Shown here: positions 50,066 through 60,108 of the stretch, in pieces
Layout of the letters: every line of letters begins with the position of its first letter
How positions within the stretch are numbered: position 1 is the first letter of the stretch
Virus record (IMG/VR): IMGVR_UViG_3300025617_000009
Span: 51,085-115,084 of that record
Length of the DNA stretch: 64,000 bases
Strand: one strand, 5' to 3'
Origin: a virus
Made by a program: the position numbers and the translations under genes
The notes under the pieces: generated by a model
Databases searched by the model: none
Seen by the model: the letters and a program-made list of their open reading frames with translations, nothing else
Told to the model about the DNA's origin: nothing

Positions 50066-51154
50066 TTAATTAAGTCCAGCTAGTCGACGGATGTTAATTA
50101 CATTCTCGTCAACTGTGTCAGTTGTTTTTGTTTCTCTATTGCCTGTTACTTCTTTGCCTTCTGTTAGTTGTGCCTTCTGCTTCGCTGGAGATTTACCGTC
50201 AATCACTGCCGGTAGGTACTTGTCGAACGCTGATTTTAATTTCGGCGTCTGAACAGATTCCAGTAAGTCTGTCATAATCTCACGTTGATCCTTGCTTAAT
50301 GGAGCAAGTAACTCGTGCATTGTTTCTTTTCTTTGAGCACTTTCTGCAAGTGTCTTAAGCTCAGCTTCTTTGCTTTCAACAAGTTGTTCTTTTTCTTGTT
50401 TAGCAGCTTTTGCTTCTGCAAGTTGTTTGTCTTTAAGATCAACTACTTTCATTAGTTTAGCAATTTCACTCTTTTCATTTAACAAACTGTTTGCATATTC
50501 ACTTGAGAACGCTTCAAAAACTCTACGTCCAAAGTCATTTTGACGAGCTGACTCGATATCTTCTTTAAGTGCAGAAATCTCTTTGTTAAGAGTTTTGCTG
50601 ACTGTTTCAGATACGATGCCTGCACTTTGCTTGACAAAACTCTTCTTGATTTTATCAAACTCTGACTTTGCTTCTCTAACCAAACGTACTTTTGTTTCAG
50701 CTAGATCCTTTTTATCTTCGTAGAACTCTGCAATTTCTTTTGCTAGTGCTTCAACAACGAATTCTTCAAGTTTGCCAAACTTAGTTGACATTGACTTTTG
50801 ATCTTCGTGTAGTTCGCCAACTTCTTTTGATAGTTGATCAACTACAAAAGTTTTAAGCATGTCTGCGTTTTCACGCATAGCAATAGCATATTTTGCTTTT
50901 GCTTCGGCAAGTTGATTACGGTCTTCTGCAAATTCTTCGATTTCACTTTGTAGTCTTTCGCCTACTAGTGCATCAAGAGCTTCAACCATAGTCTGCTTGT
51001 CATGCTCGTATTTTTTAGCAAATTCTTCACGAAGTTCAGCTGTTACCGCTTGACGATTTTCTTTAATCTTAGCGTCCCATGCTTCTTCGATGCTCGCACG
51101 AACTTCTTCAGAAACAACATCGTTCTCAAAAAGTGTTTTCAGTGCATCCAACAT
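50066..51154 (-). CDS. 22: Prohead core scaffold gp22
   Basis: A 362-aa, almost entirely helical, Glu/Lys/Ala-rich protein (coiled coil ~20-270). It begins MLDALKTLFENDVVSEEVRASIEEAWDAKI and ends ENVINIRRLAGLN, features shared with marine T4-like gp22. The scaffold guides gp23 assembly and is then digested by gp21. T4 gp22 is 269 aa; the longer central coiled coil has internally repeating segments (EEFAEDRNQLAEAKAKY, EFYEDKKDLAETKVRL). Lies between gp21 and gp23 as in T4. Confidence 0.92.
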   Translation of the reverse strand: MLDALKTLFENDVVSEEVRASIEEAWDAKIKENRQAVTAELREEFAKKYEHDKQTMVEALDALVGERLQSEIEEFAEDRNQLAEAKAKYAIAMRENADMLKTFVVDQLSKEVGELHEDQKSMSTKFGKLEEFVVEALAKEIAEFYEDKKDLAETKVRLVREAKSEFDKIKKSFVKQSAGIVSETVSKTLNKEISALKEDIESARQNDFGRRVFEAFSSEYANSLLNEKSEIAKLMKVVDLKDKQLAEAKAAKQEKEQLVESKEAELKTLAESAQRKETMHELLAPLSKDQREIMTDLLESVQTPKLKSAFDKYLPAVIDGKSPAKQKAQLTEGKEVTGNRETKTTDTVDENVINIRRLAGLN

Positions 51155-55566: not shown

Positions 55567-58164
55567 CTATTGGACAGTGCTGCCCATTCCTTCTGTTGCT
55601 CTTAATTGTCTGCGGCCTGTTGTATTCATAGTTTGCAGTGTTTGCAGAACCATCATCATAGTAGTATTTAACTTTTCTAGTTCTTCCTTGCTTCCGCTAC
55701 CGCCACTCATTTTTTCAATAACCTGTGCGGCATTAACACCTGTTCCGCCGCCGAATGCGCCTTTGTTGTCTTCTGCAAGTTCGTCATTTAGTTTATCTAG
55801 TACTTCAACTAGTTCTTTCATAGCTTCAGTATACTTGGTTATTGGCGTTGTGTCAAGTGAATCTGTTACATTTGTTAATGCCGCTAGTCCAGTTCCTACA
55901 TCTCTTATATTACTAACTGCTTGAGTATTTGCATCGCCAAATGTGTTAACACCTTCTATCAATGTTTCAAAAGGATTACTTGCACCTAGGTATTGTAAAA
56001 ATGTATCTAATGCATTACCTGCTGTAAATGTTGCTAGAGCAGGTCCTAACCCTCCTAGTCCTGTTACTATTTTATCAAGATTGTCTGCGCCTTGGATATT
56101 TGCAACTACTTCAAGAGCGTGTGCAACTCTTTCCATTCCTGCGCCTATGTGATCTATACCTTCACCGATTGCGTACAAACCTGCACCTGATAAGCCTAGA
56201 ACAGCACCTATAGCGGCTCCTCCTATAGCTGCAGGACCTGCAGCAAACATTCCTAAAATAGTTGCAAATGCTGTAAATCCAAGAATTATTCCTCCAGTCT
56301 CTCCTAATAGTGATACAAGTTCTCTAATATTTTCCATGTTTAGAGAATCAAATAAACTACCAAGTATTCCTGTTGAAGTGCCTTCTCTATCAGCTTTAGC
56401 CAATTCATCACGCTTATCACGCAATTGATTCATTTTAGCAATAGTATCATCTATTTGTTGTTGAACAACAGCATATTCATCCGCTGATATTCCTGGTCTG
56501 TTTTGCTGACTTTGTAATTCTTTAAGTTGATCTTCATATCTAGATATTTTAGTTTCGGTTTGTCCAATTGCTTGTCTGTTATCAACTTTTTCTCCACCAA
56601 AGATAAAGTTTTTAATCATTTCGCCGAGTCCGCTAAATGCATCGCTTATATACATTTTAAGAGTATCTACTAGTCCAAAGTCTTTTATGTCTTGTATTAA
56701 TTCTTTAAAGAAATCTGCAACAACTTGCACTCCAGTTTCTAGTTGTTTTAATCCTGCGCCTGAAGTAAAGAAGTCTACAATATCACTCAACATATATTCA
56801 AACTGTTGGAATATGCCACTTTTAATTAATGTGCCTAATATAACATTTCTTGCTTGAGTTAATCTACGTTCAAAATCTAATAGTCCTTGATTACCTCTGT
56901 TAGCTGCGTCAACTTGTTCTTGTTGTACTTGTGTGAGATTTTTACCTACATTGTCTAAGCCAATTAACATTGCTTCTACTTCAGCAACTGGCACGCCTAA
57001 TGCAATCAATCTTGATCTGAATAATCTCTGTGCGTCAGAACTTTCTCCGATACGTTTTGCAGTTTTTCTTACTTCAGCAGCATATTCGTCTTGACTTACA
57101 GTACCGTTTACCAGTCCTGCCGCCATGTCTCTAAGTTTAGGGTTAACAACAGCAAGTGCTTTCGCTTGATCTGTAATAGGTATACCTGCTGTTCCTATGA
57201 GTTCCGTAACAATATTTTGCAGATCTGGACTAGCTCCTTTTAACAAAGCAAGTGTTCCGTCTATTTGAGCTTTCACTGCTGGATCCATTCCTGCTAATAA
57301 TGCTTTTAATCTTCTATCGTCAGCAAACTCTTTTAGTTCTGCAGCAACTTGATCTCTACGTTTACCTGTTAGTTTAGATAGTTTGTCTAGTTGCATAATG
57401 TATGTTTGAGCACCTTGCGATAACTGGAAGTTATCCATACGCTGAGCACGGCCTAATCTTGTTTGTATTTCTAAATAGTCAGCAGTGAACTGAGCAGTTT
57501 CATGCATTTGCATACCTAATGCACTAGCGGTAGGTCCGAAATCTCTTTGTAGTATTCCACTAATCTGTGTAAATGCTCTAGCACCTGCGGTTGAACTACC
57601 TGTCATTAATGCTAAAGATTCAGCATTATTTGTAATAGTATCAGTATATGTTTCTAAAGACAATCCTGCCTTTGTTGCTTGTAGTTGAGCATTAAATAAA
57701 CTTCCACCAAAATCTGTACCTACATCGGTTAATGTGCGGAAGTTGTCAATATTATTGTCAATGACACTAACAAGTAGTTGTAAAGGTGCAGCGGCTAAAC
57801 CAAAGCCAAGTGGCAGTTCTTTAATAAGACCTGTTATGTGACTTGAAAAGTCACTGATACGCATACTACCTGTTAAAAACTCTTCAGTAAGTCCGCCAAG
57901 TGCGTTGCCTAAATGACCTAAGCCCCGAGTCAAGCGGTTGCCAGCATCCTCTGCTTTTTTACCCATGTCTTCAACTTGGTCACCGGCTTCTTTAGATTTA
58001 TTTGCTAATTCTTCTAGTGCTTCGCGACGCTTACTAGCATCGCCAGAACTTATTTTAGAAAGTCTGTCTACTGCTTTAACAAGTTCTGCAAGTGTAGTTT
58101 CCGTGGCGGCATTATTAAGGACAACTTCGTCTTCCCCAATGGTGCCTTTTACCGGATCTGCCAT
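55567..58164 (-). CDS. Large tail protein, tape-measure-like
   Basis: An 865-aa protein, mostly helical. A coiled-coil start (AETTLAELVKAVDRLSK...) is followed by long Gln/Ala/Leu-rich helices. Hydrophobic glycine-rich segments (IILGFTAFATILGMFAAGPAAIGGAAIGAVLGLSGAGLYAIGEGI, ~625-670) are typical of tail tape-measure proteins that enter the tube and later the membrane. T4's tape measure gp29 is 590 aa. It is transcribed divergently from the gp26-like hub gene, and gp26 and gp29 also stand close in T4. The sequence itself carries no specific motif, so the call is from composition and context. Confidence 0.6.
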   Translation of the reverse strand: MADPVKGTIGEDEVVLNNAATETTLAELVKAVDRLSKISSGDASKRREALEELANKSKEAGDQVEDMGKKAEDAGNRLTRGLGHLGNALGGLTEEFLTGSMRISDFSSHITGLIKELPLGFGLAAAPLQLLVSVIDNNIDNFRTLTDVGTDFGGSLFNAQLQATKAGLSLETYTDTITNNAESLALMTGSSTAGARAFTQISGILQRDFGPTASALGMQMHETAQFTADYLEIQTRLGRAQRMDNFQLSQGAQTYIMQLDKLSKLTGKRRDQVAAELKEFADDRRLKALLAGMDPAVKAQIDGTLALLKGASPDLQNIVTELIGTAGIPITDQAKALAVVNPKLRDMAAGLVNGTVSQDEYAAEVRKTAKRIGESSDAQRLFRSRLIALGVPVAEVEAMLIGLDNVGKNLTQVQQEQVDAANRGNQGLLDFERRLTQARNVILGTLIKSGIFQQFEYMLSDIVDFFTSGAGLKQLETGVQVVADFFKELIQDIKDFGLVDTLKMYISDAFSGLGEMIKNFIFGGEKVDNRQAIGQTETKISRYEDQLKELQSQQNRPGISADEYAVVQQQIDDTIAKMNQLRDKRDELAKADREGTSTGILGSLFDSLNMENIRELVSLLGETGGIILGFTAFATILGMFAAGPAAIGGAAIGAVLGLSGAGLYAIGEGIDHIGAGMERVAHALEVVANIQGADNLDKIVTGLGGLGPALATFTAGNALDTFLQYLGASNPFETLIEGVNTFGDANTQAVSNIRDVGTGLAALTNVTDSLDTTPITKYTEAMKELVEVLDKLNDELAEDNKGAFGGGTGVNAAQVIEKMSGGSGSKEELEKLNTTMMMVLQTLQTMNTTGRRQLRATEGMGSTVQ

Positions 58165-58241: not shown

Positions 58242-59096
58242 ATGGAACAACAATCTAACAATCCTTTAAAGAAATACTATAGACAACCTAAGATTTATAT
58301 TAGTTTGCCTAGCAAAGGCAAGTATTATCCGCCTGGAGCACTTGACTTTGAACCAACAGGTGAATACCCTGTGTACCCTATGACTGCAAAGGATGAATTA
58401 AGTTTTAAAACTCCTGATGCATTATTGAACGGACAATCAACTGTTGATGTTATCCAAAGTTGTATTCCTGCAATCAAAAATGCGTGGGCATTACCTAGTT
58501 TAGACTTAGATGCTGTGCTGATTGCTATCCGTATTGCTACATTCGGTGAAACTATGGATATGAATATCGATGTTCCAGGCACTGATATTGAACGTGGATT
58601 TGTTGTTGATTTAAGAATATTAATGGATCAGTTTGCTAATGTAAACTTTGAAGATACCATTCAGATTGATCAGTTTACTGTTACTCTTGCACCGTTAACT
58701 TACAAAGATTTTACAGAACAAAGTTTAAAAAGTTTTGAAGAACAGCGTGTGTTTGCTATTGTAAACAACACTGATATGGCTGAAGATGAAAAAATCTCAG
58801 CTTTTCAGCAGAGCTTTAAAAAACTAACAGAACTTAATATTAACACTGTTGTTAAAAGTATTCAAAGTATTTCAGTTGACGGAGAAACTGTAACAGATCG
58901 TGCGATGATCGACGAGTTTGTTGCTAACTGCGACAAAAACTTTTTTCAAGGCATTACAGATCATCTTTCTGCACAAAAAGAAAAGTTCCAAATTGCTCCA
59001 ATGACAGTAGAAACCACAGAAGAAGAACGTGCAGCAGGTGCTCCAGAAAAATTTGAAGTTCCTATTGTGTTTGACCAAGCACATTTTTTCGGATAA
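58242..59096 (+). CDS. 26: Baseplate hub subunit gp26-like (zero-frame product)
   Basis: A 284-aa protein. YISLPSKGKYYPPGALDF at ~17-34, YPVYPMTAKDELSFKTPDALLNGQ (45-68) and DVIQSCIPAIKNAWALPSLDLDAVLIAIRIATFGETM (70-108) fit the T4 base-plate/gp26 family (PF12322-type). T4 gp26 is 208 aa. The zero frame ends ...HFFG just after the slippery T TTT TTC; a -1 shift would replace the last residue and add 76. Own late promoter and SD (CGGAG). In T4 the gene belongs to the central-hub module 25-26-51-27-28-29. Confidence 0.8.
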   Translation: MEQQSNNPLKKYYRQPKIYISLPSKGKYYPPGALDFEPTGEYPVYPMTAKDELSFKTPDALLNGQSTVDVIQSCIPAIKNAWALPSLDLDAVLIAIRIATFGETMDMNIDVPGTDIERGFVVDLRILMDQFANVNFEDTIQIDQFTVTLAPLTYKDFTEQSLKSFEEQRVFAIVNNTDMAEDEKISAFQQSFKKLTELNINTVVKSIQSISVDGETVTDRAMIDEFVANCDKNFFQGITDHLSAQKEKFQIAPMTVETTEEERAAGAPEKFEVPIVFDQAHFFG

Positions 59097-59144
59097 GGAT
59101 TCTGACCTGGCCAGTCGACGATATTTTAGAAGAGGTCAGAATCC
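59084..59144 (+). promoter_or_regulatory. Putative programmed -1 ribosomal frameshift signal
   Basis: A slippery heptamer T TTT TTC (59084-59090) in register with the zero frame, then a 6-base spacer GGATAA that holds the zero-frame stop, then a perfect 11-bp inverted repeat GGATTCTGACC (59097-59107) / GGTCAGAATCC (59134-59144) with a 26-base loop. Slippage by -1 enters an open frame of 76 codons to 59320. Confidence 0.8.
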
Positions 59145-59320
59145 TAGAACAGCAAACAAAACAATTTAAACTAGACCTATTCAGACTGAGCTGGTATATG
59201 CGTGGAAGCCTAGGATTAGATGATATTTTTTCACTGTGTCGAGATGATCGAGAAATAATCAGTGAGTTGGTAAAAGAAAATATGGAGACCACTAAGAAAA
59301 GTGGTCTGCCATTCTATTAA
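59090..59320 (+). CDS. -1 frame extension of the gp26-like protein
   Basis: Seventy-six sense codons (CGG at 59090 to TAT at 59315-59317) and TAA. The frame has no ATG near its beginning; the first ATG is at 59198, inside a helix. The peptide is coherent: DDILEEVRILEQQTKQFKLD, then RLSWYMRGSLGLDDIF, ending ENMETTKKSGLPFY. I recall a small separate ORF with that sort of sequence (SWYMRGG..., ETTK...LPF) after gp26-like genes in marine T4-like phages. The likely product is a 359-aa fusion. Independent initiation at CTG 59102 or ATG 59198 is the alternative. The stop overlaps the converging gene by three bases. Confidence 0.7.
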   Translation, partial: RIRILTWPVDDILEEVRILEQQTKQFKLDLFRLSWYMRGSLGLDDIFSLCRDDREIISELVKENMETTKKSGLPFY

Positions 59321-60108
59321 GCTTCTTCTTTCTCTAATTGCTTAACCATTTGAATAAAACGATTACGTTTTTGCGGTTCGGTCATAATAGCCATTAGTGG
59401 CTCTACAAAAGGAGCAAGTTCTTTTGCTAGATTAGCAGGAATAGCTTCGCCTTTGACTATTTTTTCCATACCTTTAGCAGTTCTGTCAGCACTTGTCTTG
59501 GAGCCCATTTGTTGTGCTGTTGTTCTAATACCTTGTTTGGTTTTAGTTGCATCACCACTGCCTTTAGTAGGAGCATACTTTGCTTTAGCAACATTGCCAG
59601 GACCGCTTACGCCTAATCCTTTCTTAGAAAGTTGTACAATAATACCTTGAATGTCACTTGGCTTTAGAGGTGCTTCAAAAATAATAGTTTCATACATACT
59701 ATCTTTTGCAACAATAGGATTGTTAGCATCAGGTTTAATAGGTTCTGCGCCTTTCATTGCTTTGCCTATTTTTTCTGCACCTTTCTTTAATGCTCCTCCT
59801 ACAGCTTTACCTACACCGCTAAGTTTACGAGACATGCTAGGATTGTCACGAATGGCTTTAATAATCTCACGCTCACTTTCAACAGGAAGTCCTACCTGCT
59901 GTAAAAACTGAAACAAAGACTTTGTATCAGGACGTTGAACGTTAGAACTTTTAACCCAATCAAGATATGCCTTAGTAAGACGCTTTGAATCTTTTTCCAT
60001 ATCAATCTTAGTAGCAGCAACATTACTGCCAAAAGTTCTTGCAATATAATCTAGAGGATTTGCTTCATCTAGTTTTTTTGATTCTGTTAGTATGTCGTAA
60101 ACATTCAT
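59317..60108 (-). CDS. Hypothetical protein, Lys/Gly-rich, conserved-type start
   Basis: A 263-aa protein starting MNVYDILTESKKLDEANPLDYIARTFGSN, as in some marine T4-like phage proteins of unknown role. A helical N-terminal ~100 residues is followed by a basic Gly/Lys/Ala-rich linker (GVGKAVGGALKKGAEKIGKAMKGAEPIK, ~96-124), then a second helical domain with a C-terminal LEKEEA. The basic low-complexity linker suggests nucleic-acid or membrane contact, possibly an internal head or injected protein. Late-promoter octamer and AGGAGAA ribosome-binding site upstream. Function unknown. Confidence 0.6.
   Translation of the reverse strand: MNVYDILTESKKLDEANPLDYIARTFGSNVAATKIDMEKDSKRLTKAYLDWVKSSNVQRPDTKSLFQFLQQVGLPVESEREIIKAIRDNPSMSRKLSGVGKAVGGALKKGAEKIGKAMKGAEPIKPDANNPIVAKDSMYETIIFEAPLKPSDIQGIIVQLSKKGLGVSGPGNVAKAKYAPTKGSGDATKTKQGIRTTAQQMGSKTSADRTAKGMEKIVKGEAIPANLAKELAPFVEPLMAIMTEPQKRNRFIQMVKQLEKEEA

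Follow-up and report, generated by a model that had tools for sequence, protein, structure and literature searches.

In phage lambda, a -1 frameshift near the stop codon of the short tail protein gpG adds a C-terminal domain to give gpGT; tail assembly needs both forms, and neither is found in the virion (PMC5009743). That 2016 review describes such frameshifting as widely conserved in long-tailed phages "except T4". T4-like tail assembly chaperones (TACs) were subsequently identified by Vladimirov, Gautam & Davidson in 2022 (Virology 566:9-15), as cited in PMC10885494 and PMC12846349. Where they cite this work, PMC12846349 refers to polyT slippery sites in T4-like TAC-N genes and PMC10885494 to a separate short gene and a long fusion gene in some T4-like phages. 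Frameshifting of this kind has been on record for T4-like phages since 2022. PMC12846349 also describes the TAC of phage Adele (Vandenendeviridae/Andersonviridae), which has a GTTTTT motif and is encoded immediately upstream of the tape measure gene. The locus analyzed here is a gp26-family gene in 64,000 nucleotides (nt) of viral DNA, referred to as the window (IMG/VR record IMGVR_UViG_3300025617_000009, positions 51,085 to 115,084). A -1 programmed ribosomal frameshift at the end of this gene very probably makes two isoforms of a gp26-family TAC.

The locus resembles lambda gpG/gpGT in that a -1 frameshift ahead of the short-form stop is predicted to append a C-terminal domain. It differs in belonging to another protein family, with no sequence match found, and in being divergent from a putative tape measure gene. 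As in the Adele TAC, the predicted -1 frameshift is at a T-rich site near the TAC-N end, the -1 frame is open in all genomes and the long form arises by fusion. Unlike Adele, with GTTTTT and a position upstream of the tape measure gene, the window has T_TTT_TTC and a head-to-head neighbor. To the T4-like chaperones as cited, the present analysis adds a hairpin whose arms change between relatives and a tape-measure-like gene in head-to-head orientation. The original prediction for this DNA, which knew of no described frameshift in this T4-like gene, is superseded on that point by the 2022 identification and by the later papers that cite T-rich slippery sites.

Probable slip site and -1 frame

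The junction reads ...GTG TTT GAC CAA GCA CAT TTT TTC GGA TAA GGATTCTGACCTGG... (Table 1). The short and long forms are both encoded here, as one gene plus a -1 extension. From the slip site the -1 frame encodes the 76 amino acids (aa) RIRILTWPVDD...KKSGLPFY and is open through 59317. The earliest possible start codon in this frame is codon 37 (ATG 59198), and the predicted fusion is 283 + 76 = 359 aa. These features bear out the original prediction of an in-register T TTT TTC at the gene end, a zero-frame TAA soon after it and a 76-codon open -1 frame lacking an initial ATG; the 284-aa and 359-aa lengths predicted for the products likewise agree with the reading frames. The end of the extension (59286–59320) contains a GACCACT...AGTGGTC hairpin that resembles a terminator when read on the minus strand. 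The stop codon of the extension overlaps that of a convergent gene (59317–60108).

Table 1. Features of the gp26-family locus in window coordinates
Feature	Position	Strand	Basis
gp26-family gene; zero-frame product is the short form (TAC-N), 284 aa	58242..59096	+	PF12322 T4_baseplate / PHROG 150
Slippery heptamer T_TTT_TTC, zero-frame register	59084..59090	+	sequence; kept in 44/44 distinct relatives
Zero-frame stop TAA	59094..59096	+	one codon past heptamer
Candidate -1 frame C-terminal extension (TAC-C), 76 codons after slip, stop TAA 59318–59320	59090..59320	+	open in every relative, pN/pS 0.22
Putative stimulatory hairpin AGGATTCTGACCT-(24 nt)-AGGTCAGAATCCT, 13 base pairs	59096..59145	+	folding, shuffles, anchored-stem search
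Long gene in divergent (head-to-head) orientation; product of 865 aa, probably a tape measure protein	55567..58164	-	position, length variation, composition, RaK2 annotation

A tblastn search of annotated phages found the gp26-like gene in 90 records, mostly of jumbo phages. Six of these that were retrieved (121Q, RaK2, PA5oct, BF, Atu_ph07 and Phosso) are 28–33% identical. The closest cultured relatives are jumbo phages (121Q/RaK2/Atu_ph07-like) and not T4 itself, which revises the T4-clade placement first proposed. A scan of IMG/VR gave 72 loci, and all those that include the gene end have the heptamer in register and an open -1 frame. The dereplicated set contains 44 sequences, comprising marine and freshwater contigs and the six jumbo phages.

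In-register TTTTTTC is present in all 44 relatives, at protein identities down to 27%. The codon ahead of the two Phe codons is AAT, AGT, CAT, ACT, GAT, CGT or TCT; thus the encoded amino acid varies and the third base T is invariant (44/44). The probability of XXT TTT TTC in all 44 by random synonymous choice is about 10 to the power -44 (log10 P about -44), a value that assumes independent draws and is too extreme given the shared ancestry. Elsewhere in these genes (12,045 codon positions), TTTTTTC does not recur in register. Every relative has a -1 frame that stays open for 71–77 codons, and the zero-frame stop lies at a variable distance of 1, 3, 4, 6 or 11 codons from the fixed heptamer.

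Selection on the extension was analyzed with 45 sequences that have a 76-codon extension. The -1 frame has a ratio of nonsynonymous to synonymous polymorphism (pN/pS) of 0.22; for the remaining two frames the values are 1.28 and 2.54. No stop codon occurs in the -1 frame of any of these length-matched sequences, and the other frames hold 5–6 per sequence. The -1 frame is under purifying selection. The extension consensus is RxRLL...WYMRGG...KDNLETTKKSGLPFF, with RxRLL as its N-terminal, WYMRGG as its central and KKSGLPFF as its C-terminal motif. AlphaFold2, run on alignments made up of the rows other than the six GenBank phages, models the extension as four helices with a predicted local distance difference test score (pLDDT) of 90.6; the model of the short form has a pLDDT of 88.5.

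T runs are common in A+T-rich phage DNA, and the GC fraction is about 0.37 here, such that a T run near a stop codon followed by an accidentally open frame might be proposed. The probability of this is negligible because the heptamer, its register, the open frame, the amino acid sequence and the hairpin are conserved across 44 diverged relatives.

The downstream frame might instead be a separate gene, translated unfused from its own start or by termination-reinitiation. Some annotations do list the extension as its own gene, and 6/44 relatives have an ATG within the first 12 codons of the -1 frame (e.g., the ATGA or TAATG overlaps in Atu_ph07, Phosso, 121Q, L008 and L031). However, 27/44, the window included, have no start codon in these 12 codons, yet residues immediately after the slip (R1, RxRLL) are conserved, and an early start together with a Shine-Dalgarno-like 4-mer is present in only 3/44. 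The fixed register of the heptamer and the T-ending codon before it would serve nothing under reinitiation. Since the stop position varies while the heptamer is fixed, and few relatives have an early start with such a 4-mer, coupling of two separate genes is disfavored and is considered very improbable. An independent-gene reading of the extension was rejected on the basis of start codons and conservation. The original prediction had proposed an alignment of the junction in relatives as its check, and named as one contrary outcome a heptamer and stem that are not conserved, with a downstream frame that gains its own start and ribosome-binding site. The alignment shows a conserved heptamer and -1 frame, with the stem present in most lineages, and no consistent gain of initiation signals.

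Downstream hairpin

The hairpin in the window has 13 base pairs (bp) and a 24-nt loop, begins after a 5-nt spacer from the heptamer and has a minimum free energy of -21 kcal/mol. The stem is thus somewhat better than first noted at this position, where it had been given as 11 bp with a 26-base loop and a six-base spacer. The fold was matched or bettered by 5/200 dinucleotide shuffles. When the codons of the -1 frame were redrawn synonymously, it was equalled by 0/200 redraws (z -4.3), and a stem anchored downstream of the heptamer has p=0.002.

With the same synonymous-redraw null, the mean folding z across the 44 relatives is -2.24 (standard error 0.26), with 26/44 below 0.05. A stem anchored 4–9 nt past the heptamer has p<0.05 in 30/44. 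The 44 sequences are related by ancestry, so the combined significance of the stems cannot be read as a product of independent tests. The paired arms change together between lineages: they are GGATTCTGACCT/AGGTCAGAATCC in the window and GGATCTTG/CAAGATCC, GGCTTTTGTAT/ATACAAAAGCC, GGCTCTTATC/GATAAGAGCC and GCCTCCTGA/TCAGGAGGC elsewhere. Loop lengths of the equivalent hairpins vary greatly. As the arms differ by lineage yet still pair, a structure beyond the coding function is supported. The locus offers a clean comparative case of the long-term maintenance of a frameshift signal with a changing RNA stimulator.

The hairpin also bears on transcriptional slippage, in which a base added to some mRNAs at the run of six T would give access to the -1 frame. 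The T run is conserved in length, and slippage of this type would yield a nearly identical fusion. However, an anchored hairpin 4–9 nt downstream in 30/44 relatives and a strict register of XXT TTT TTC are what tandem tRNA slippage would require, and six T is short for efficient transcriptional slippage. Transcriptional slippage is accordingly thought to be most unlikely. Three sequence features typical of X_XXY_YYZ-type -1 frameshifting are present: an in-frame heptamer before the stop, a stable structure after a short spacer (about 5–9 nt) and a selected -1 frame that lacks its own initiation. The frameshift is very probably real.

In the proposed mechanism, most ribosomes would stop at TAA 59094 and produce the 284-aa short form (TAC-N). 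A few would pause at the hairpin 5 nt downstream, slip with both Phe tRNAs from CAT TTT TTC into the -1 frame and go on to translate the 76-residue helical domain, resulting in the 359-aa long form (TAC-NC). If lambda gpG/gpGT is taken as a model, the short form may coat the tape measure protein and a few long forms may recruit tail-tube subunits, both forms leaving before the virion is complete. From these features we infer the occurrence and efficiency of slippage and the role as a chaperone.

Probable chaperone role and the neighboring gene

The short form matches Pfam PF12322 at 4.4e-11 (43.3 bits, curated cut-off 24.5) and PHROG 150 at 8.1e-15, and the N-domain is homologous to gp26. Its fold matches in BFVD include T4-like baseplate hub assembly proteins. 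The PF12322 (TAC-N) gene is single-copy in six complete jumbo-phage genomes, in which the profile search found no second TAC-N gene.

Comparisons of profiles connect this gene to T4. T4 gp26 against gp51 gave 99.2%, and the cyanophage fusion against T4 gp51 gave 98.5% over 238 columns that include the C-terminus. The fusion of the window clade aligns with the cyanophage fusion at 98.0% over 270 columns, through the C-domain, and the cyanophage C-domain alone matches gp51 at 91%. This profile chain to the cyanophage fusion and gp51, and the single-copy PF12322 gene, support the G/GT-type chaperone pair initially proposed. The chaperone role is probable.

The gp26 protein might alternatively be a structural subunit of the baseplate hub, with the extension a minor hub variant. 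Databases label the gp26 family "baseplate hub", and work on T4 has been divided over the presence of gp26 in the hub (PMC3004832). The same article, however, lists gp26 and gp51 as hub assembly chaperones, with gp51 outside the final particle. In PA5oct, many neighboring proteins carry "ESI-MS/MS" notes but the gp26 homologue has none. The short/long pair and the place before the tape measure gene in Bacillus phage SP-15 and Flavobacterium phage immuto also fit a TAC, and a structural role is considered unlikely.

The long gene next to the gp26-family gene is head-to-head with it in every relative where it was detected. A conserved N-terminal region and lengths of 675–1318 aa would be typical of a tape measure protein; there is also a Gly/Ala-rich hydrophobic stretch, and the RaK2 homologue is annotated as similar to tail tape measure protein. 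The profile of the long gene did not match cyanophage tape-measure candidates, and the case for a tape measure gene is therefore made by its position, its varying length, its composition and the RaK2 annotation. The back-to-back order with a tape-measure-like gene, which had been pointed out at the outset, is thus kept in relatives, and the tape-measure identity is probable.

Pfam and PHROG scans of the extension gave nothing convincing beyond PHROG 18291, with one weak match to Mu gp41 (0.033). PHROG 18291, to which no function is assigned, matches the -1 extension in three of the sequences (L005–L007, presumably enterobacterial phages) at up to 1.7e-36, and could be read as a chaperone C-domain. 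The probable long chaperone form of this large group of jumbo and marine phages has been overlooked or listed as a separate hypothetical gene, pieces of which are included in PHROG 18291. Searches of the PDB with both domains, by sequence and with Foldseek, gave no usable match, to a solved TAC included.

Several observations weigh against a frameshifted chaperone. The support for slippage is drawn from sequence, and the extension had no family or PDB match in sequence and fold searches. About a third of the 44 relatives have no significant stem in the anchored-stem search; lineages without one include L017, L022, L028, L072, L076 and the enterobacterial jumbo phages. The C-domain of the window clade, which is short and diverged, gave about 2% probability when compared alone with the cyanophage/gp51 C-terminus, and the fusion of the window clade compared directly with gp51 gave 56%. 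The gene and its putative tape measure neighbor lie head-to-head, whereas the usual TAC position, also that of lambda G/GT, is directly upstream on the same strand; the related loci lack this arrangement as well. It is present in SP-15 and immuto, in which the gp26-family gene has tube or sheath genes on one side and the annotated tape measure gene on the other. The kind of system is known, and the window clade counts as a well-supported case of it, with a notable hairpin history.

The wider gp26 family

TTTTTTC is also present in 82/82 related cyanophage-like and KVP40-like loci and in S-RIM8. The -1 frame of the cyanophage/KVP40-like loci holds a small open reading frame annotated "baseplate hub assembly catalyst". 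ZPAH1, PhiW-14 and SCTP-2 have TTTTTTC, and Melnitz, XacN1 and CM1 have TTTTTTT.

T4 and Phi1 have gene 25 directly after gene 26, without an extension, and gene 51 is divergent. The cyanophage fusion aligns with T4 gp51, and T4 therefore seems to use two genes instead of a frameshift. The abstract of the 2022 study reportedly names T4 genes 26 and 51 and describes frameshifting as conserved in several T4-like groups. The separate short and long genes of T4-like phages are presumably genes 26 and 51, with which the profile comparison agrees. The present locus thus bears on T4 gp26 and gp51 as a split short/long chaperone pair.

A tentative history, to which we would give somewhat less than even weight, is that the T_TTT_TTC frameshift is ancestral in the gp26 family, from cyanophages to jumbo phages. 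The hairpin would have been rebuilt repeatedly across lineages, the 3' arm moving and the 5' arm anchored, and the T4 branch would have swapped the frameshift for a duplicated gene (26 and 51). Long uncharacterized proteins of phiKZ-like jumbo phages match by fold, and the chaperone fold may thus reach as far as these phages.

Two members from Ackermannviridae, Serratia phage 3M and Vibrio phage VAP7 (L084 and L093), have an open -1 frame after gp26 without the canonical heptamer; GTTTTC / GTTTTT is found near the stop. In L087, L088, L092 and L095 (Flavobacterium phage immuto, Microcystis phage Mel-JY01, Bacillus phage SP-15 and an uncultured phage) the reading frame of the extension is +1/-2, an indication that these members of the gp26 family shift by another mechanism. 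The short form (58242–59093) has fold matches to long uncharacterized proteins of the jumbo phages RSF1, RP12, Special G and phiEaH2 (Foldseek E about 1e-4 to 1e-6), which are possible unrecognized chaperones as judged from the models.
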